Positions 638 through 12,133 of a DNA stretch of 12,133 nt are shown here, in pieces; within the stretch, counting starts at the first letter, position 1; every line of letters starts with the position of its first letter. The notes beneath the pieces are model-generated. The model was not told the DNA's origin. It worked only from the letters and a program-made list of their open reading frames with translations, and made no database searches. The stretch is from Candidatus Eiseniibacteriota bacterium. GTDB lineage: Bacteria; JAFGKV01. Both the position numbers and the translations under genes were made by a program. The stretch lies in NCBI GenBank assembly GCA_025453925.1, contig JALOPK010000071.1, positions 1 to 12,133 of the forward strand. Reading direction: 5' to 3'.

Positions 638-3079
638 ATGCCGCGCGTCGCGTCTGTCATCGCCGCGTTCTCCGTGCTTGCGGTCTCCCACGCCGCTGCT
701 CAGCGCAATCTCGGCCTTCCGCCCGAAGGATTTCGCAGCGTCCACCAGGCGGAGTTGGAAGCCCATCGAGGCGAACCGCCGGTCTTCGTGCCCCATGTCT
801 GGCCCTTGGCGCCCTTGGCAAGAGACCGGGGCCCGGCCTTGAGTCGCGAAGTCCTGGGGTACTACCCCTACTGGGTCAGCGGCTACTCCAGCCTCCGGTG
901 GGACCTTCTGTCGACGCTCGCCTATTTCTGTGTTGAGGCCAACGGCGACGGATCCCTGGGAGCCCTGAATGGGTGGCCGGCCACAGGTCTGATCAACGAG
1001 GCGCACCTCAACGGGGTTCGCGTCGTACTCACGGTCACGTGTTTCAGTTCTGCGACCATCACGTCCATCCTGAACTCGCCAGCCAACCGCACCAACCTGG
1101 TGAGCAACCTGCTGGCCCAGGTGCAGGCCGGCAGCGCTGACGGCGTCAATGTGGACTTCGAGGGCATGCCCTTGGCCCAGAGGGACAACCTGACCTTGTT
1201 CATGCAGGAGCTGTCATCGACGTTCTACGCCGCCATCCCGGGATCACACATCACCATCGCCACGCCGGCTGTTGACTGGTCTGGCGCATTCGACTACGAT
1301 CAACTCGCCTCCGCGTGTGACGGCCTCATGGTCATGGGCTACGACTACTTCTGGAGCGGAGCGCCCACCACCGGCCCCGTCGCGCCGTTGGACGGCTATT
1401 CCTACGATGTCACCTGGACGGTGAATGACTATCTCTACTACACCGGCGGCCAGAACGAGAAGATCATCCTGGGCTGTCCCTACTACGGGTTCGACTGGCC
1501 CTGCACGGGCAGTCTCCCCGGGGCATCGACGACCGGCGCCGGCACGGCCAAGACCTTCCAGGTCGCCGAGCCTCTGGCGCAGGCATACGGCAAGCAGTGG
1601 CATGTGCCCTCGTCGACGCCGTGGTATGCGTACAACTCAGGGAGCTGGCATCAGTGCTGGTATGACGACTGGGTGAGCCTCGGTGCGAAGTACAACCTGT
1701 TCGTTACCCAGGACTTGCAGGGGGCGGGGATCTGGGCGCTCCGCTACGACAGCAATCGCGTCGAGCTGTGGGATGCGCTGGATCGCTACTTCGGCACGGT
1801 ACCTCGGGATCTGAGAATCGTGAACGAGGGCGAAGGGGATCTCCGTGTGAGCTGGGCGGCAGTCAAGGGCGCGACGTCGTATCGCCTGTACCAGAGCAGC
1901 GACGGGGTGAACTTCGACGGCGGCACCCAGGTTGCGGATACGACAGTGATGCTGCCAGATCTGCCCATCGGTTTGGTGCACTACGTCAGGATGGCAAGCA
2001 TTGTCGCCGGCACCGAGAGCCCGGCAGGCGAGGTGCTCGGCGCCAGGGCATCGGTACTTCCGGCATCCGCAATGGTTGTGCACGCATTCGACCGGCGGTG
2101 GAGCGGCAACACCCGCGACTACATCCGCCAGCACGCCTCATCCCTCGCCAACCTCGGAATCGCTTTCGACGCGTGCAGCAATGAAACGGTGGTCGATGGC
2201 CGGGTTGCCCTGGGCGACTACGAGGCGGTGGATTGGATCACCGGCAATGAAAGCACCAGTGATGAGTCATTCGCATGGGGCGAACAGGAGATGCTGACGG
2301 ACTACCTCCAGGCGGGAGGGGCGGTGGTCCTCTCCGGCTCGGAGATCGGCTACGATCTGGAATCCCAGGGAAGCGCGTCGGATCAGGCATTCTATCACGA
2401 CTACCTGAAGACGGACTACACGGGAGACGACGCAGGTGTCTATCAGGCCCAAGGATCCGCCGGGAGCATCTTCGCGGGCGTGACCGCTTTCGGCTTCGAC
2501 AATGGCACGCACGGGACCTACGATGTCGCCTACCCCGATCGACTCAGCGCCTATGGCGGCAGCAGCGTTTGTTTGACCTACACCGGCACGGCCTACAATG
2601 CGGGCGTGCAGTTCGCCGGGACGGTTCCCGGGGGAAGCGCGCCTTGCCGCGTTGTCAGCCTCGGGTTTCCGCTGGAGACGGTCTACGCGTCCGCCGCTCG
2701 GGACACCCTGTTCTCCCGGATCATGGGCTTCTTCGGGGTTGCACCAGAGCCGGATGTCGTGCCCCCGGAGGCCGTAGGCGACCTCGTGGTTACCGCATCG
2801 GGGGCCGACTTGCTGTTGGCCTGGTCTGCGGTGACACAGGACACATTGGGGTCGGCGGAGACCATGGGCCACTACACCGTGTACCGGACGAGTGGCGCGT
2901 GGTCGGCCATCACTCCGGCGGACTCGGTGGCGGCGGTGCCGACTGCTGGGTGGACCCATCCGGCCGGTGTTCCCGGGAGTGGGCTGGCTGCCTACTACGC
3001 AGTCAAGGCGGTTGATCAGGAAGGCAACTCAGCAGCCATTTCGTCCCGCTCCGGCAGCATCAGCTTCGCGCTCCCATGA
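638..3079 (+). CDS. Secreted GH18-like glycosidase with FN3 and Rossmann-like modules
   Basis: 813 aa. AGGAGG five bases upstream fixes the start. Residues 1-21 are a signal peptide with likely cleavage after AAA, before Gln22. Residues ~72-386 are a GH18 (beta/alpha)8 barrel of the chitinase/YaaH-like type. DGVNVDFE (168-175) is the DxxDxDxE active-site motif with Asn171 for the middle Asp, Asp173 and the proposed acid/base Glu175. MGYD (233-236) is the strand-6 motif and GIWALRYD (364-371) fits strand 8 with Trp366. Then come an FN3 module (~387-472), a Rossmann/GATase1-like module (~476-702) and a second FN3 (~706-813). It probably hydrolyses a beta-1,4-linked amino-sugar polymer (chitin, peptidoglycan or exopolysaccharide) outside the cell; the substrate cannot be told. 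No LPXTG, lipobox or membrane anchor is seen. The Rossmann-like module recurs in the protein at the right edge. The 3' end overlaps the convergent gene by 64 bp. Confidence 0.88.
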   Translation: MPRVASVIAAFSVLAVSHAAAQRNLGLPPEGFRSVHQAELEAHRGEPPVFVPHVWPLAPLARDRGPALSREVLGYYPYWVSGYSSLRWDLLSTLAYFCVEANGDGSLGALNGWPATGLINEAHLNGVRVVLTVTCFSSATITSILNSPANRTNLVSNLLAQVQAGSADGVNVDFEGMPLAQRDNLTLFMQELSSTFYAAIPGSHITIATPAVDWSGAFDYDQLASACDGLMVMGYDYFWSGAPTTGPVAPLDGYSYDVTWTVNDYLYYTGGQNEKIILGCPYYGFDWPCTGSLPGASTTGAGTAKTFQVAEPLAQAYGKQWHVPSSTPWYAYNSGSWHQCWYDDWVSLGAKYNLFVTQDLQGAGIWALRYDSNRVELWDALDRYFGTVPRDLRIVNEGEGDLRVSWAAVKGATSYRLYQSSDGVNFDGGTQVADTTVMLPDLPIGLVHYVRMASIVAGTESPAGEVLGARASVLPASAMVVHAFDRRWSGNTRDYIRQHASSLANLGIAFDACSNETVVDGRVALGDYEAVDWITGNESTSDESFAWGEQEMLTDYLQAGGAVVLSGSEIGYDLESQGSASDQAFYHDYLKTDYTGDDAGVYQAQGSAGSIFAGVTAFGFDNGTHGTYDVAYPDRLSAYGGSSVCLTYTGTAYNAGVQFAGTVPGGSAPCRVVSLGFPLETVYASAARDTLFSRIMGFFGVAPEPDVVPPEAVGDLVVTASGADLLLAWSAVTQDTLGSAETMGHYTVYRTSGAWSAITPADSVAAVPTAGWTHPAGVPGSGLAAYYAVKAVDQEGNSAAISSRSGSISFALP

Positions 3080-5442
3080 CGTCGCGAACCAGGTTTCTCC
3101 CGCCCCGAACTCTCGCCGCTGCTCTCTGGTTGTGGGGCCGTCGTTGAGGAGTCCCGGAAGCTGAACAGGATGAGCAGGATCCCCCCGTACGCTGCCGCCG
3201 CGGCGTAGAACATCACCGCGTATCCGGTCACTATCGGGAGGACGAGCGACACCACGATCCCCAGGATGGAGAACGAGATGTCCGTCGCATATGCCAGCAC
3301 CACGTGTGCAGAACCCTTGGCCTGGGCCCGTTCGAGCAGGAACGGGAAAGGAACGCCTATCAGAAGCCCCAACGGCAGGAAGACCCCTCCGCAAAGTGCG
3401 ATTCGTCCGGCGAGCGTCAAAGACGCCAAGCTCCCCGTCATCGACTCCGTGAGAGCGGGAAGGCAGAGAATCGCGGCTACAGTCAACCCGAGCAGACCCC
3501 TGACCATCGCGGCCGGCACCGGAGTGCGGCGCAAACCCATCAGGAAGCTGGTAACCCCGGCACCGATGAGCACGGCGGTGATGACAACAGTGCCGGCCAA
3601 GTACGGCGCACCGAAGACGGGGACAATCCTCTGTATCAGCACGGTGACAATGGTCATGAATCCAAACCCCGTGAAGGCTGCGTACGCCACCTGCTTCCTG
3701 GCAAAGAACCGATCGAGACCTGAGAACACGCCGCCGCGTCGGGCCCGGCGAACCACGAACGAGACGGCAGCGAGTGAGGTGGCGAGCAGGAAGGCAGCAG
3801 CCTCTCGTACCGGCGCTGGCGGTGTCCTCCCCGCTATGTAGAAGAAGGGGCGGTTATTCGTGGTCGTCTTGGCCATGGCGGCGGTCCGCAGGAAGGAGGC
3901 CGAGTCAGTGAGCACCGCGAGGGAGGAGTCATCGGAGACCAAGTTCAGCAGTCGTGATCGATCGATGCCTCCCGGCTCGTAGATCATGAAGATGCCCCTC
4001 CCGGCCTCGTGCCGTGTCGTCAGAACCGCCGTGCAGTCGGGGTTGATGCCGAGCTCAAGCATGTTCCTGAAGAGGTGCACGGCGACCGTCGGGTAGGTGT
4101 TGATCATGGCCTGTCTCCCATACTCGTTCATGCTTTCCGCGAGATGAATGAACAGGACTCCCTTGGCACCAAGTGACTCCACGGCTGTTCTGAGCCCTTC
4201 GACGGTGTAGAGGTAGTTTTCCGCCTTCACGAGGCTCTGTAACGAGGACGCGATGAATGAGTCGGCGACGGGATAGATGATCAGTGAGTAAGGCCCGGGA
4301 TGCGACTTCAGGTACGAGAGCCCCTCCCATGACAGGTAATTGACGCCGGGAGAGAGCAGATAGGGGGCCTCATCTGCGTGCGAGAGGGTGAATGCGACCA
4401 CGGCAGGGTCGAGTTCAACCGCCACGATGCTGTCGGCTCTCCCGGAGAAATAGCCGACTTGGGGGGCCGCTCCCGCTCCGATAATGATGACGCGTGAGAG
4501 ATCTCGTGGATAGGAGTACAGCGGCGACGGCGCCATGCGGAGTCGTTCGGCAGGCGAGGCTTCCTGCGTGATGAGCGCCGTCGTCCCAAGGTTATCGTAT
4601 AGCACGACGTAGAGGCCATCGGCTTTCGTGAAGTTGAGCTTCCTGTAAGGAGACCATCCGATGTATTCGGTCCGATAGTCGCCGAAGAGAAATCCCCTAG
4701 CGGTGTCTACGATTCTGTCCGGCACACTTCCGTACTCTCGATCGCGGGCGCTCTGCAGGAGATCGAACTCCCGAACCGACGGAATGAGCGCGGCGTAGAC
4801 CGCACCTGATGCAGCGACAGCCAAAGGAAGTCCGACCCTGATGCCATAGCTCCGCCGCGGAATCTCCATGATGATGATGACCAGCAGGAGAGAACCAAGA
4901 ACCGGAAGGAAATAGAGCACCAGGGGATCGGCAATCGAGACAAGGACGATGGGCAACGCGCCTCCGAGAGCGGAGCCCGCAATGTCGCATGCCCAGGTTC
5001 GCAGGAGTCCGCCAGAATCCGCGGCACATGTGAGGATGTGGGCCAAGACGTAGCCGAAAAGAACGTAGACTGCAACGAAGAAAGGATACAGCAAATACAT
5101 GCAAATCATTATGTAGTCAAAGAAAGCAGATCTTGATACGAACTGCAAGAAGACCAATGAGAAAACAAGCACGAAAAGAATCAGCAGAAAGAGGAGAGCA
5201 GGCAGAAATGGCACGCATGCAAAGATGCGCGAAGGAGGCTTTCTGTGATGAGAAATCCAGATGAAGTTCCCAAGTCCGAGTCCTAAGATCGTTGAGGCAT
5301 AGACGAAGAACGACGCAAGCGTGAACCCGATACGTATGCCGGAGAGGATCCTGAGGAGGAGTAGTTCGCTGCTGATGACGGAAAAGGCCGCAAGAAAGGC
5401 GGCCAGGTGCGTCTTTGGTGGAGCGAGCGGCCTGAAGGTCAT
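3016..5442 (-). CDS. Polytopic membrane protein with spermidine-synthase-like domain
   Basis: 808 aa. AGGAGGG (5453-5447) four bases before the ATG supports the start. Residues ~12-220 form about six or seven membrane segments. The soluble part (~225-540) carries WSPYRKL at 263-269 and a Rossmann methyltransferase core: VIIIGAGAAPQ (318-328) as the AdoMet-binding glycine loop and AVELDP (341-346) as the acidic strand-2 motif. NNRPFFY (529-535) matches the motif that precedes the second membrane block in these proteins, and ~545-765 add about six more segments. The family is annotated as spermidine synthase-like or MFS-linked. Here the strand carrying the catalytic Asp of true aminopropyltransferases reads LIIYPVADSF (387-396), with Tyr390 at that position, so polyamine synthesis is doubtful. 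The function is unknown. Bases 5101-5160 are about 37% GC by hand count, well below their surroundings, partly from hydrophobic codons. The hydrophilic tail overlaps the GH18 gene. Confidence 0.85.
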   Translation of the reverse strand: MTFRPLAPPKTHLAAFLAAFSVISSELLLLRILSGIRIGFTLASFFVYASTILGLGLGNFIWISHHRKPPSRIFACVPFLPALLFLLILFVLVFSLVFLQFVSRSAFFDYIMICMYLLYPFFVAVYVLFGYVLAHILTCAADSGGLLRTWACDIAGSALGGALPIVLVSIADPLVLYFLPVLGSLLLVIIIMEIPRRSYGIRVGLPLAVAASGAVYAALIPSVREFDLLQSARDREYGSVPDRIVDTARGFLFGDYRTEYIGWSPYRKLNFTKADGLYVVLYDNLGTTALITQEASPAERLRMAPSPLYSYPRDLSRVIIIGAGAAPQVGYFSGRADSIVAVELDPAVVAFTLSHADEAPYLLSPGVNYLSWEGLSYLKSHPGPYSLIIYPVADSFIASSLQSLVKAENYLYTVEGLRTAVESLGAKGVLFIHLAESMNEYGRQAMINTYPTVAVHLFRNMLELGINPDCTAVLTTRHEAGRGIFMIYEPGGIDRSRLLNLVSDDSSLAVLTDSASFLRTAAMAKTTTNNRPFFYIAGRTPPAPVREAAAFLLATSLAAVSFVVRRARRGGVFSGLDRFFARKQVAYAAFTGFGFMTIVTVLIQRIVPVFGAPYLAGTVVITAVLIGAGVTSFLMGLRRTPVPAAMVRGLLGLTVAAILCLPALTESMTGSLASLTLAGRIALCGGVFLPLGLLIGVPFPFLLERAQAKGSAHVVLAYATDISFSILGIVVSLVLPIVTGYAVMFYAAAAAYGGILLILFSFRDSSTTAPQPESSGESSGREKPGSRRHGSAKLMLPERDEMAAELPS

Positions 5443-7355: not shown

Positions 7356-9641
7356 TCACTGTTCGAGCTGGTAGTCCATCTCGCCGACGGGCGCCGACGG
7401 CCCCGAAGGCCCCTGGGTTGTCGACACCGCGACGATGCGGTAGAAATGATTGACCGCTGGGTCGCCGGCCATGCCCGCGTCGGTGTAGGTGGTGCCGGTC
7501 GGTGACGCGATGGGCGTCAGGCCGCTGACCAGGAAGTGCGGAATCGTATGGCGGTACACGCTATAGTGATCGATGGTAACCGGATTGCCCGTGACATCCT
7601 GGGTGACCGGACTCCAGGTGAGGACGACTGCTCCGAGCCCGGTGGCGGAGGCCGCCACATTCAGAGGAGTGCGCGGCGGGGTGGTCGCACTGGTCGGCAG
7701 TGTCCCCAGGTACGGGCGCACATTGTAGGCGGTCATGGTGACGTCGACGTCGCCGGAGGTCGTCGGGTTGACCGCCAGAGTGACCTGCCCGGACGCATTG
7801 GTATAGCCCCAAACGTAGACTTCCGACGACTTTCTCAGGCACACCAGCGCACCATGAATGGGCCCCCTGGCCGGGGTCGTGACGGTGGCAGTCACATTGG
7901 TCGTGGTCCCCACCGCCACCTGGCTCGGGCTGAGTGTCACTGAGGAGGTCCCCGGCACGTCGGTGAAGACTTGGACCGACGGATCCCCCAATACAGTGTA
8001 CTCGTGCATCCCCGAGTTCCGCTCTCCCGCGGTGAGGCCGGTGGCATGGTTCCACGCGTAGAGCTTGCCGGAGAGGAGGGATTGTCCCACCATGGTGGCG
8101 CCTGAGTCGGTCCATGCGAGGTAGATGCCCTGGTCCAATGGATCGTTGAAAAGGTAGGATGTGTACGCCTGTGAGCCGATGAAAGCTAAGGCCCCCTTGG
8201 GATTGGCGGGATCTTCGTAGTCTCTTCGGAGCAGGAGTTCGGCGGTCGTGGCGTAGTCGCTTGCGTCAAACCTGGCGGAGGAGCAACTCAAGACCGTCCA
8301 CACACCGAGTTTGTTCGTGTTGTTCACGTAGTCGACGTCATACGACGAGAACGTGCCATTCCAGTCCGTGCCGTCGCAGCTAGAGACCCGGCAGTTGTAA
8401 AACGTCACGCCCTGATTCACGACGGGAAGAATCTGGCTGGAGTTGGCCTGGTTCTGGAACCGTTCGGTCACGTTCATGCCCCAGGCACTGAGTTCGTCAC
8501 TGACGAAGTTCTTCGCCGCCGTAATGTGGTTGTTGACACTGGAGTCATAATGATTCGCTTTCAGCGTCATGAGGGCACTCTTCTGCCAGGTGCCGTTGAT
8601 GTAGGGAGTCTTCTCGTAGCCTATGGTTTTTGCGAGCTGATAGTTCATCCGCGAGGCGTTCGAGTCGGGGAATCGTCCCACCATGATATCGGCAAACACG
8701 TCGCTGCCTTCGAGGTACGAGTACCACTGATCGTGAAACATGTAGCCCTGGTAGTAGAACTCGTTGTAGAACTTCTTGGTATAGATCGACCCCGCCTGGT
8801 TGTTGCCATTGATGTCGCCAACCAGGAGCACGAAATCAAGCCCATCGGGCCACGTGTCGTACGCATTCTGGATGACGGCCTTGGTAGCGTCCATGCATGC
8901 GTCGGAGTTCGGGTTGGTGTATCCCAGGCTCTCCAGGGTGACCACCTGGACGCCGTATCCCTGGCGCGTCTTCCACTCCACGAACTGTGGCGTCTGCGTG
9001 TCGAATGCCGTGCGCGAGACCACGATGTACCGCTTACCGGTTCCGCGATCCAGGCGCGTCAGATTCAGCGAATCATAGTTGAGCACGTGCTTGCGGTACA
9101 TCCCCTCCCATGCGGGTGACACCGGGCGGGCTGGCCGCGTCTTCTCATTGAGCCCTGCGCCCCCGATGTTCTCGATGCGAAGGGTGAACCGGCGAGCGAC
9201 ATAGGATCGGTCCCCGACAGTCCAGCAGGGGGCGACCCCTACATCCACGACGCGCAAGTCACGCCAGATGCCGGGCTCGCCGACCGTCACCGTGGACAGC
9301 GGAACGTGCCGTGGATCGACCGTCTCGATCCGATCCGGATCCTCTGTGGGGGCGATCTCAGCTTCCACGACCGACACGCGGGCATTGCCCGTTGGAGCGA
9401 TGGCCACGAGGCCTACTCCGACCGCCTCGCTGGCCGGCAGGCGCGCCGGGTCGTCCAGGGTAATGGCAACCTCAAGGAGGATGTCATCCGAGGACGATGG
9501 GAGCACCACGCCCGACGCGCGATACGGCGGCGGGGCAACCGCACCGAGGGCTCCGCTGCATTCGTGGAGAGGTTCGGCAGCCTGCGTCGGACCGGCGCAG
9601 ATGAGGGCGGCGATCAAGAGGACTCCGAGGGCGGATCTCAT
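7356..9641 (-). CDS. Secreted gingipain-type (peptidase C25) protein, catalytic His apparently lost
   Basis: 761 aa from the ATG at 9641. Residues 1-22 are a signal peptide (MRSALGVLLIAALICAGPTQAA). Residues ~23-195 resemble the C25 propeptide region. Residues ~203-565 are a C25 caspase-like fold: YIVVSRTAF (205-213), FVLLVGDING (270-279), DIMVGRFP (318-325), the nucleophile segment WTVLSCSSARFD (448-459, Cys453), KGALAFIGSQAYTSY (482-496) and the family's closing motif YTVLGDPSVQV (548-558). Where gingipains and relatives read NY.GHGS...W, this protein reads NCRVSSCDGTDW (416-427), with Ser420 at the His position. Gingipains are Cys/His dyad proteases, so this one may be inactive or use other residues. 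An Ig-like module (~566-645) and a C-terminal FN3 (~657-761) follow. No T9SS-type or LPXTG sorting tail is recognisable. It is the downstream paralogue of the gene at the right edge. Confidence 0.85.
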   Translation of the reverse strand: MRSALGVLLIAALICAGPTQAAEPLHECSGALGAVAPPPYRASGVVLPSSSDDILLEVAITLDDPARLPASEAVGVGLVAIAPTGNARVSVVEAEIAPTEDPDRIETVDPRHVPLSTVTVGEPGIWRDLRVVDVGVAPCWTVGDRSYVARRFTLRIENIGGAGLNEKTRPARPVSPAWEGMYRKHVLNYDSLNLTRLDRGTGKRYIVVSRTAFDTQTPQFVEWKTRQGYGVQVVTLESLGYTNPNSDACMDATKAVIQNAYDTWPDGLDFVLLVGDINGNNQAGSIYTKKFYNEFYYQGYMFHDQWYSYLEGSDVFADIMVGRFPDSNASRMNYQLAKTIGYEKTPYINGTWQKSALMTLKANHYDSSVNNHITAAKNFVSDELSAWGMNVTERFQNQANSSQILPVVNQGVTFYNCRVSSCDGTDWNGTFSSYDVDYVNNTNKLGVWTVLSCSSARFDASDYATTAELLLRRDYEDPANPKGALAFIGSQAYTSYLFNDPLDQGIYLAWTDSGATMVGQSLLSGKLYAWNHATGLTAGERNSGMHEYTVLGDPSVQVFTDVPGTSSVTLSPSQVAVGTTTNVTATVTTPARGPIHGALVCLRKSSEVYVWGYTNASGQVTLAVNPTTSGDVDVTMTAYNVRPYLGTLPTSATTPPRTPLNVAASATGLGAVVLTWSPVTQDVTGNPVTIDHYSVYRHTIPHFLVSGLTPIASPTGTTYTDAGMAGDPAVNHFYRIVAVSTTQGPSGPSAPVGEMDYQLEQ

Positions 9642-9885
9642 GGGTGCACTCCTTGGGGCGGGGTGGGCTGCGGGGCGGTTGCAGGGCGGCATTGTCCGTC
9701 AATCGAGACGCAACACGGGGGGCGAAACAGCGGATGAACCACTACGCCGTCAAGCGTCGGCAATAGGGACTCGGGGAGTTCCGGCGGCATTGCCGCACTA
9801 CCGCACGCAAGCCGCCCGCCCGCCAGAGGCACCCCGTGTTGAGGGTGGGTGCGGTCTCCCCATCGGGGGGCGGGGGTGGCAATCA
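9642..9885. other. Spacer between the two C25-like genes
   Basis: This 244-bp spacer separates two tandem minus-strand genes and is rich in C and G runs. Weak inverted repeats (GCGGC/GCCGC at 9784-9796; GCACCC/GGGTGC at 9829-9852) follow the upstream gene, but neither has a T tract. On the minus strand two TTGACG hexamers occur without a convincing -10 partner. The length allows a separate promoter for the downstream gene, but I cannot point to one. Confidence 0.4.
9649..9654 (-). promoter_or_regulatory. Shine-Dalgarno site fixing the C25-like gene start at 9641
   Basis: AAGGAG on the minus strand sits seven bases before the ATG at 9641. The open frame reaches back to another ATG at 9692, but that codon has no good ribosome site and would put 17 Pro-rich residues ahead of an otherwise normal signal peptide. 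The 9641 start is therefore preferred. Confidence 0.8.
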
Positions 9886-12133
9886 TCACGGCGTCACGAA
9901 CTCCAGTTCGCCGACTGCCGGCGTCGCCGCACTCTGGTTGCCTGCGGCGTCCTTTGCGGTGACGCGGTAGAAGTAGTTCAGATTGGGATCGCCGAGGCCT
10001 TCGGTCATCAGGATACTGGTGGCCGTGGTTGTCGTCTGGGGCGTCATGCCCTGTACTTCAAAATAGGCCAGGGAAGTCCTGTACACGCAGTAGTGGTCCA
10101 CGCCGACATTGTCCGAAGCAGGGCTCCAGCTCAAGGTGCCATCCTGGGCGAAAGCCGGATTGGATGGAGACGTCGGGGCCAGCACATCCCCTCCGAGCCA
10201 GGTCAGAGACCGGTCAAGCACCGTCTCGATGTTGTTCGGATCTGACCCGCCCGTCGCGAAGGCCTCCAGCGGGACGCCGAAGAACACCACCCGGTAGGTG
10301 CCCGACCCGCCGGACGGATACCGGATCACCACCGGATCCCCACTGCCATCCATGCTGAATACCGTGGCCGCGCCCGTGGCGGGATCAACCCGATCGGGCA
10401 AATCCGACAGGTCGGCATGGTAGCTGAGCCCCACGGCGGCGCCGTTGCCGATGGGATCTCCGGTCTCTCCGTTCACCGCGCTCCCACTGCTCGCGGTGAA
10501 GGCACTCACGTGAAGGTAGTTGGAGGTGAAGGCCTCCCCGCCATAACTGGTGGAATAGTTCTCGGCAGAAAGCAGCAAGGCGCCCCCTTCATCGAGGTAC
10601 GACGACAGATTGGTCTGGTTCTGGCTCGTGACGCTGTTGGCGTTCTGATCACCCGCGGCCCACAGCACCGTCCGGTACATGCGTAGTGTGTCGACCGGTA
10701 CGGTTTCCATGCCGGAATCATACGTGTTCCATCGCACGTAGGAACGCCCCCGCGCGTCCAGCGCGTCGGTGATTCGCGTCTCGGTGACTTCGTTGTCAGC
10801 GTCCACGAAGAGGAGTTCGCGGAGCCCGATGGTAAGGGCGAAGCTGCCGGACGTGGTGTAGAATCCCGAGTTGGCCGTGAGTTCGAACTGAATCGTCGCC
10901 ACATGCGCCTGGGGGCATGACTGACTGATCTCCAGGCTGAATGCAGGGCTGGTCAGTTCGGCCCCCGCCGGGATGTTCCCGAGGTTCTGGGTGGACGATC
11001 CGTTGATGGATATGTAAGGATCCGACTCGCTGAGGGTCAGCAGTGCCGACCGGGCCGGCCCCGTGCCGTCGTTCCTGAGTTGCAGCGACATGTCCACCGT
11101 TTCCCCTGGGTCCGCGATGCCGGTGCCATTGCCCGTCGCGTCCAGCACTGGTGTGGCGAGCCTCACGACGACCGGGGCGCGCACCGTGGTGGAGAAACTC
11201 CCCGACCAGAGTGAGTCACCCGAGTGGATGGCCAGGCTGAACGGCACTGACGTCTGATCCGCCATCGTGCCGACGCGGAACCTGAATGGGGAGTAGGGGA
11301 GCGCGGTGCTGCCCGCGGCGATATTGCCGTAGTTTCTGGTGGCGTTGATCATGAGGATCGCCGGCTGGGCCGTGCTCAGCGTCGACTGCACCGAGGGCGC
11401 CGTCTGCGTGCCGACGTTGCGGAGTTGGATGTTCATGGACACCGTGTCTCCCACATCGGCGTAGCCGTCTCCGAGGATCGTGTTGGCGTCATAGACCACG
11501 TAGGGGCCGGATGTGGCCAGCACGGGCACGGTGGTGAGCACTGGTTGCTGGTTGTAGGCGGTCACCGTCAGGTCTACGTTCCCGATGGTGCCGGGAGTCG
11601 CGTTGAGCGTCACCTCGCCCGCGCCATTCGTGTACCCCCAGGCATAGACCTCGCCGGACTTGCGCAAGCAGACCAGTGCATCGGCGACCGGGCCTCTGGT
11701 CGGATCCGTCACGGTGACGGTCACGCTCGATGGCTGTCCCGCCACCAGAGTGGAAGGCACAACGGACGTGTTGGTGGTCTGGGGCACATCGGTCCACACC
11801 TGCAGCGAGGGATCCCCCAGAATGGTGTACTCATTCATCATGCACTCGCGGCGATTCGGATCGAAGCCGGCATACATGTGGTTCCACGCCCAGATCTTGC
11901 CCGACAGGAAGGCCTCACCAAGGATTGACTTGCCCGAGTCCGTCCAGCAGCGGTAAAACCCCTCATCAAGCGGGTTGTTGTACTCGTAGGCCGTGTAGGC
12001 CTGGGAGCCGATGAAGGCGACGGCACCCCTTGGCTCAGAGGTCGTCCCCAGCCGGAGCATCTGCTCGCAGAGGATGGCGTCATAGACCACGTAGGGGCCG
12101 GATGTGGCCAGCACGGGCACGGTGGTGAGCACT
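9886..12133 (-). CDS. Gingipain-type (C25) multidomain secreted protein, C-terminal part (runs off right edge)
   Basis: The frame is open to the window's right end, so the true start, signal peptide and most of the peptidase domain are missing. Counting visible codons from 12132: RGAVAFIGSQAYTAYEYNNP (35-54) and EYTILGDPSLQVWTDVP (101-117) are the end of a C25 domain. An Ig-like module (~118-205) closely matches the neighbour's (both contain ALVCLRKS.EVY.WGYTN). Two CARDB-like beta repeats follow (~208-320 and ~321-437), each with a GDG/GNG..AD.G(D/E)T entry motif. Next is a Rossmann/GATase1-like module (~438-648) homologous to the one in the GH18 protein, then a final FN3 (~650-748). The catalytic His and Cys are not visible. 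The first 19 visible codons duplicate residues 198-216 exactly and replace the segment expected to hold the nucleophile Cys, so the reading at the very edge is doubtful. It is probably extracellular. No sorting tail is recognised. Confidence 0.8.
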   Translation of the reverse strand, partial: VLTTVPVLATSGPYVVYDAILCEQMLRLGTTSEPRGAVAFIGSQAYTAYEYNNPLDEGFYRCWTDSGKSILGEAFLSGKIWAWNHMYAGFDPNRRECMMNEYTILGDPSLQVWTDVPQTTNTSVVPSTLVAGQPSSVTVTVTDPTRGPVADALVCLRKSGEVYAWGYTNGAGEVTLNATPGTIGNVDLTVTAYNQQPVLTTVPVLATSGPYVVYDANTILGDGYADVGDTVSMNIQLRNVGTQTAPSVQSTLSTAQPAILMINATRNYGNIAAGSTALPYSPFRFRVGTMADQTSVPFSLAIHSGDSLWSGSFSTTVRAPVVVRLATPVLDATGNGTGIADPGETVDMSLQLRNDGTGPARSALLTLSESDPYISINGSSTQNLGNIPAGAELTSPAFSLEISQSCPQAHVATIQFELTANSGFYTTSGSFALTIGLRELLFVDADNEVTETRITDALDARGRSYVRWNTYDSGMETVPVDTLRMYRTVLWAAGDQNANSVTSQNQTNLSSYLDEGGALLLSAENYSTSYGGEAFTSNYLHVSAFTASSGSAVNGETGDPIGNGAAVGLSYHADLSDLPDRVDPATGAATVFSMDGSGDPVVIRYPSGGSGTYRVVFFGVPLEAFATGGSDPNNIETVLDRSLTWLGGDVLAPTSPSNPAFAQDGTLSWSPASDNVGVDHYCVYRTSLAYFEVQGMTPQTTTTATSILMTEGLGDPNLNYFYRVTAKDAAGNQSAATPAVGELEFVTP
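11484..11542. repeat. 59-bp exact direct repeat, internal copy
   Basis: These 59 bases recur without mismatch at 12075-12133. This copy encodes the join between the Ig-like module and the first CARDB-like repeat (VLTTVPVLATSGPYVVYDA), where the sequence reads naturally into DANTILGDGYADVGDT. It is the copy that fits its protein context. Confidence 0.9.
12075..12133. repeat. 59-bp exact direct repeat, copy at the window end
   Basis: Identical to 11484-11542, offset by 591 bp, which keeps the reading frame (197 codons). It ends at the last base of the window. In the protein it sits just before ILCEQMLRLGTTSEPRGAVAFIG, where the neighbouring paralogue has its catalytic-Cys segment. This placement does not suit a C25 domain and suggests an assembly error or a recent internal duplication. 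Confidence 0.9.

Follow-up and report, generated by a model that had tools for sequence, protein, structure and literature searches.

A gingipain-fold protein without the catalytic histidine, and the His-less branch of peptidase family C25 to which it belongs

Introduction

The gingipains RgpB and Kgp (MEROPS family C25) are the closest described relatives of the protein discussed here. In RgpB, the Cys/His dyad sits at the ends of strands Hb3 and Hb4, and Gln282 and Trp284 of the S1 lid loop contact the P1 Arg (clan CD review, PMC4357240). Genes annotated as C25 'gingipain-like' made up more than 40% of the exported peptidase genes in estuarine sediment, where they were interpreted as encoding arginine-specific endopeptidases (PMC6752024). 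MEROPS has a category for non-peptidase homologues (PMC5753285). Within clan CD, the pseudo-orthocaspases (C14B) provide an example of replacement of the catalytic His, and one of their groups, with a QC dyad, keeps the Cys and has Gln in place of His (PMC6426788).

The window analysed in this work is a 12,133-nucleotide stretch of DNA from a Candidatus Eiseniibacteriota bacterium (contig JALOPK010000071.1 of assembly GCA_025453925.1), in which an earlier note, made from the sequence alone, had read a C25-like protease with Ser at the position of the catalytic His. This protein resembles the gingipains in its whole catalytic fold and IgSF domain, its Cys nucleophile, the positions of its active-site loops and a plausible type IX export. 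It differs from them by Arg in place of Thr209, by replacement of the catalytic His, by an L5 loop rebuilt with N-[N/D], and apparently by the loss of the S1 residues Asp163 and Trp284, the first of which lies in a poorly aligned region. It resembles the pseudo-orthocaspases as a clan CD protein in which His is replaced and, as in one of their groups, Cys is kept. Unlike this C25 protein, those proteins belong to C14 and carry Tyr (with Ser or Asn for Cys) or Gln as replacements, and the part of the account used here describes neither an Arg signature nor a linked loop change (PMC6426788).

The C25-like gene and its product

The gene and its peptidase domain are located as follows.

7356..9692, minus strand: C25-like gene, frame open over 778 codons from the first ATG
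7971..9029, minus strand: Peptidase_C25 domain (PF01364), residues 222-574, 149.1 bits

The second ATG, at 9641, is the likelier start of the gene and would give a product of 761 aa (7356-9641); it is preceded by a Shine-Dalgarno-like AAGGAG and followed by a signal peptide, as read by eye. Residues are numbered throughout on the 778-aa version that begins at the first ATG, so Cys417, Cys422 and Cys453 of the earlier note, which are exact when counted from the second ATG, become Cys434, Cys439 and Cys470.

The Pfam search that the earlier note had proposed as a check places the protein in the C25 homology family, with a PF01364 match that spans positions 1-373 of the 374-position profile and scores 149.1 bits against a cut-off of 23. 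By phmmer, gingipain R is the sole relative with a solved structure (E 2e-13). An AlphaFold2 model built from 69 sequences (mean pLDDT 94.9, pTM 0.94) has the gingipain fold including the IgSF domain. It matches RgpB (1cvr/4ief) with a VIA Z of 45.4 (for 1cvr, rmsd 2.2 over 418 residues) and Kgp with a VIA Z of 41, and Foldseek agrees on the fold (E 7e-29). Foldseek also matches the N-terminal part to the RgpB prodomain, but with an rmsd near 10, so we do not claim a prodomain for this protein. PorU, the type IX sortase, is a C25 protein of the same fold family (latent PorU against the model, Z 16.5); identity with PorU was rejected, as the NF033707 score is 29.9 bits against a cut-off of 420.

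The catalytic loop and its register

Comparison with RgpB identified the following features at the active site.

8361..8402, minus strand: catalytic-His loop, FYNCRVSSCDGTDW, residues 431-444, with Ser437 in the RgpB His211 column
8388..8390, minus strand: Arg435, the subfamily signature, in the RgpB Thr209 column; the class is defined by Arg at this position
8376..8378, minus strand: Cys439, present in all seven Fermentibacterota clade members with a readable motif
8283..8285, minus strand: Cys470, in the place of the RgpB nucleophile Cys244; all 200 domains that cover this position have Cys
8121..8174, minus strand: remodelled L5 (S1 lid) loop, residues 507-524

The sequence N-C-R-V-S-S-C stands where RgpB has N-Y-T-G-H-G-S, and the alignment places Ser437 on H211, Arg435 on Thr209 and Cys470 on C244. 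An active gingipain has the catalytic Cys, present here as Cys470, and a His followed by Gly; since Ser437-Ser438 replace this His-Gly pair, the protein is not filed as an active gingipain. It is a C25 sequence without one catalytic residue, and hence a non-peptidase homologue in the MEROPS sense. In the model, strands 431-436 and 463-467 end just ahead of Ser437 and shortly ahead of Cys470, which are the positions of the dyad in RgpB. This confirms the register and the absence of the His. The by-eye alignment of the earlier note is thereby upheld, as is its statement that the C25 fold and the nucleophile are kept. Its reading of a clean frame also stands: all 778 codons read through without interruption, and a frameshift or chance motif is excluded, since none of the six nearest relatives has the His either.

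The substrate pocket of RgpB appears to be altered as well, with His389 and Tyr513 in the columns of Asp163 (in the poorly aligned region) and Trp284. The L5 loop carries the signature residues Thr511, Asn516, Asp517, Asp520 and Tyr524 of the group of His-less domains described below, here called the Arg class. In this class the loop reads T-x-x-x-x-N-N, with Thr at 511 in 98 of 107 domains; N-[N/D] at 516-517 occurs in 101 of the 107 and in 1 of 83 His-bearing domains, counts for which a p value would be meaningless because they reflect shared descent and few events.

Residues peculiar to this copy and its clade

The nearest relatives, from Candidatus Fermentibacteria or from the same genome, read NYRGxxC and have no His. 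The full NCRVSSC motif, which the earlier note had proposed to look for in close homologues, is not found in them, and of its two extra Cys residues only Cys439 is common. Cys434 (Tyr in relatives) and Val436 (Gly in relatives) are private to this copy and are each one base change from the usual Tyr and Gly codons; Val436 occupies a Gly position that is nearly invariant in both His and Arg classes.

Across the seven Fermentibacterota clade domains, no Cys other than Cys439 and Cys470 is invariant, and in two of the seven they are the sole Cys. It is possible that they form a disulfide or redox pair at the former active site. Such a pair would be clade-specific, because Cys439 is invariant in the clade and its column holds no Cys in the remaining Arg-class members.

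Two contig-end fragments of the same genome (G000:C246 22-786 and G000:C250 2-1333; L042 and L040) are 46% identical to the protein under study and match its residues 38-295 and 321-772, and they probably represent opposite ends of a single additional clade member.

A His-less Arg class in family C25

The earlier note had described the altered motif for a single protein. Comparison across genomes shows that loss of the His, together with Arg at the position of Arg435, is a trait of a large, apparently undescribed C25 branch that many sediment bacteria share. When GTDB contigs were scanned with an alignment as query, 79 loci were obtained; the same scan with the single protein as query found no relatives. 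Since one of the two scan patterns included NYRG, counts from the scan over-represent the Arg class. A first alignment of 111 domains (the scan loci, paralogues and RgpB) contained 92 Arg-bearing domains that lack the His, 17 His-bearing domains that lack the Arg, 1 with both and 1 with neither, and all 111 had the Cys. Across all 201 aligned C25 domains, 107 lack the His and have Arg at the RgpB Thr209 column. The presence of Arg in 107 of 107 is circular, as the class is defined by it, while the Cys is kept in every one of them; 22 of the 107 were obtained outside the pattern scan.

A census independent of the NYRG pattern was made from the Pfam C25 matches in the focal genome and six further genomes. 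Among about 92 domains in these seven C25-rich genomes, 32 were Arg-only, a proportion of one third that is not a community average because the genomes were picked for their many C25 copies. The rest comprised 49 His-only domains, 4 with both residues, 1 uncovered and 6 others (in the His column itself, 3 of these have Arg and 1 has Thr, and 2 are unreadable at the motif). In this census, Arg and His are nearly mutually exclusive in C25 domains.

The Arg class occurs in at least eight named phyla, including Fermentibacterota, Cloacimonadota, Fidelibacterota, Zixiibacteriota, Eiseniibacteriota, Gemmatimonadota, Stahliibacteriota and Caldifarciminota, mostly at 22-32% identity to the protein under study. 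Most of its members are at least 1,000 aa long, and their His column is mostly Trp, Tyr or Phe, with Ser in the focal copy. The Arg class groups on trees built without the motif columns: on one it requires 2 changes versus 17.8 with shuffled labels, and on a second 4 versus 64.6. The class is close to one lineage, possibly of single origin, so Arg, His loss and the coupled loop change may have arisen in one or a few events. No description of a His-less C25 class was found in the open-licence literature, so this Arg class appears to be new, while pseudo-variants of clan CD are already known.

About one third of the C25 domains in the seven genomes lack the catalytic His yet score far over the Pfam cut-off. 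If this ratio holds in sediments, many of the 'gingipains' predicted there would not be ordinary proteases. The two C25 classes could then be told apart by a simple motif, His-Gly in one and Arg at the Thr209 column in the other.

Other arrangements of His and Arg were also seen in the family. A second His-less group from Fermentibacterota reads [ILM]GRGDFYTW, which places Arg directly in the His column, and retains the Cys (SCHSGR); it comprises L049 (824-3574, minus strand), L223 and L230, which are orthologues in G000, G002 and G001. Four domains read N-H-R-D-H-G, which combines the Arg with the His, and their L5 loop has N-D (L048, 684-3572, minus strand; L204, L205 and L208). They form one group with full tree support, and may be intermediate between the His and Arg classes.

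Proposed function and alternative explanations

We lean towards a secreted gingipain-fold protein that has no Cys/His dyad but still uses its Cys, probably with Arg435; any enzymatic role is hypothetical. Ordinary Cys/His hydrolysis of peptide bonds would have been lost, yet the site would still be in use, as all members, from many phyla, retain the Cys. Arg435 occupies the end of the strand leading to the lost His, and strand alternation would put it on the face that the His used, so it could adjoin Cys470 and hold its thiolate, the rebuilt loop or both. This contact is deduced from the register of the modelled strand. A site of this type might bind, covalently trap or transfer an extracellular ligand and would not cleave at Arg or Lys. 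Cys439 may cap Cys470 as a disulfide in the Fermentibacterota branch. A shifted dyad, raised in the earlier note, is possible, with Arg and not His as the candidate partner. In a stronger form of this proposal, which we put forward only tentatively, the His-less class would be a working family of enzymes or covalent traps with a Cys-Arg centre (Cys470, Arg435 and the T511/N516/N517 loop). We know of no example of Cys-Arg chemistry in clan CD. With the His-less class it could be tested cleanly if Cys and Arg are able to form a working site in clan CD.

The main alternative, to which we assign a substantial but lower probability, is that the whole subfamily is dead as a protease and that its members are secreted modules for binding, adhesion or structure, with Cys470 kept for folding or for a Cys439-Cys470 disulfide. 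The missing His and the apparently altered S1 residues (with the caveat on the Asp163 region) are as expected of such a pseudoprotease, as are the length of most class members and the status of Cys439 and Cys470 as the only clade-invariant, and in two members the sole, Cys residues. The pseudo-orthocaspases provide a clan CD precedent (PMC6426788).

In proteases that have died, the nucleophile is often missing from some lineages. In the Arg class, however, the nucleophile Cys is present in every member, no second conserved Cys is available outside the Fermentibacterota clade to pair with Cys470, and the loop that surrounds the site shows conservation, not drift. For these reasons, a rewired Cys-dependent site is favoured over a dead scaffold, though only moderately.

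It is improbable that the protein is an active protease that takes its general base from elsewhere, such as a His at position 512 or 322, or from a partner chain. The earlier note had named a conserved His next to the Cys as the finding that would overturn its reading, and no such His column was found among the 92 first-aligned His-less Arg-class domains. The two best columns, 322 and 512, the latter within the S1 lid loop, hold 62 and 58 His respectively among these 92 domains and could supply a base in many members, but neither is invariant, and the focal copy has Gln and Ser there. The six long Fermentibacterota members have a single invariant His, His202, and it precedes the C25 domain.

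Recent decay of this copy alone, or an assembly error, could account for the private, single-base changes at Cys434 and Val436, but as a source of NCRVSS it is very improbable and as the cause of the His loss it is refuted, given the six His-less nearest relatives, the open frame and the conserved surrounding blocks.

Tandem paralogue, export and neighbouring genes

A second C25 gene lies upstream of the first.

9886..12132, minus strand: upstream tandem C25 paralogue, cut by the contig end

The sequence present covers the last part of its C25 domain and its C-terminal modules, and the catalytic motif falls off the contig. It is 72% identical to a His-less relative from the same genus (L071) that reads NYRGDYC, and is probably of the same Arg class. 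Eight further loci with two Arg-class copies pair them together (L060/L077, L075, L078, L080, L083, L098, L142 and L144), and no mixed Arg/His pair was seen among them. The suggestion in the earlier note that the Ser-bearing protein is a binding or assembly partner of an active paralogue thus loses ground; a dead partner of an active enzyme is unlikely because the paralogue is itself probably Arg-class.

Export by a type IX-like route is likely, because homologues of SprA and PorV are encoded in the genome, with seven PorV-family loci over the cut-off. The PorV-family and SprA loci lie on G000 contigs C345, C380, C206, C401, C159, C6 and C422, and together they represent an expanded set of type IX secretion shuttle proteins.

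Elsewhere in the window, 638-3079 (plus strand) encodes a GH18-family protein (PF00704, 106 bits); its C-terminal half is similar to the modules at the C-terminal end of the C25 proteins. The gene at 3016-5442 (minus strand) encodes an 808-aa protein with many hydrophobic stretches and no Pfam match at 0.001, which by eye is a membrane protein.
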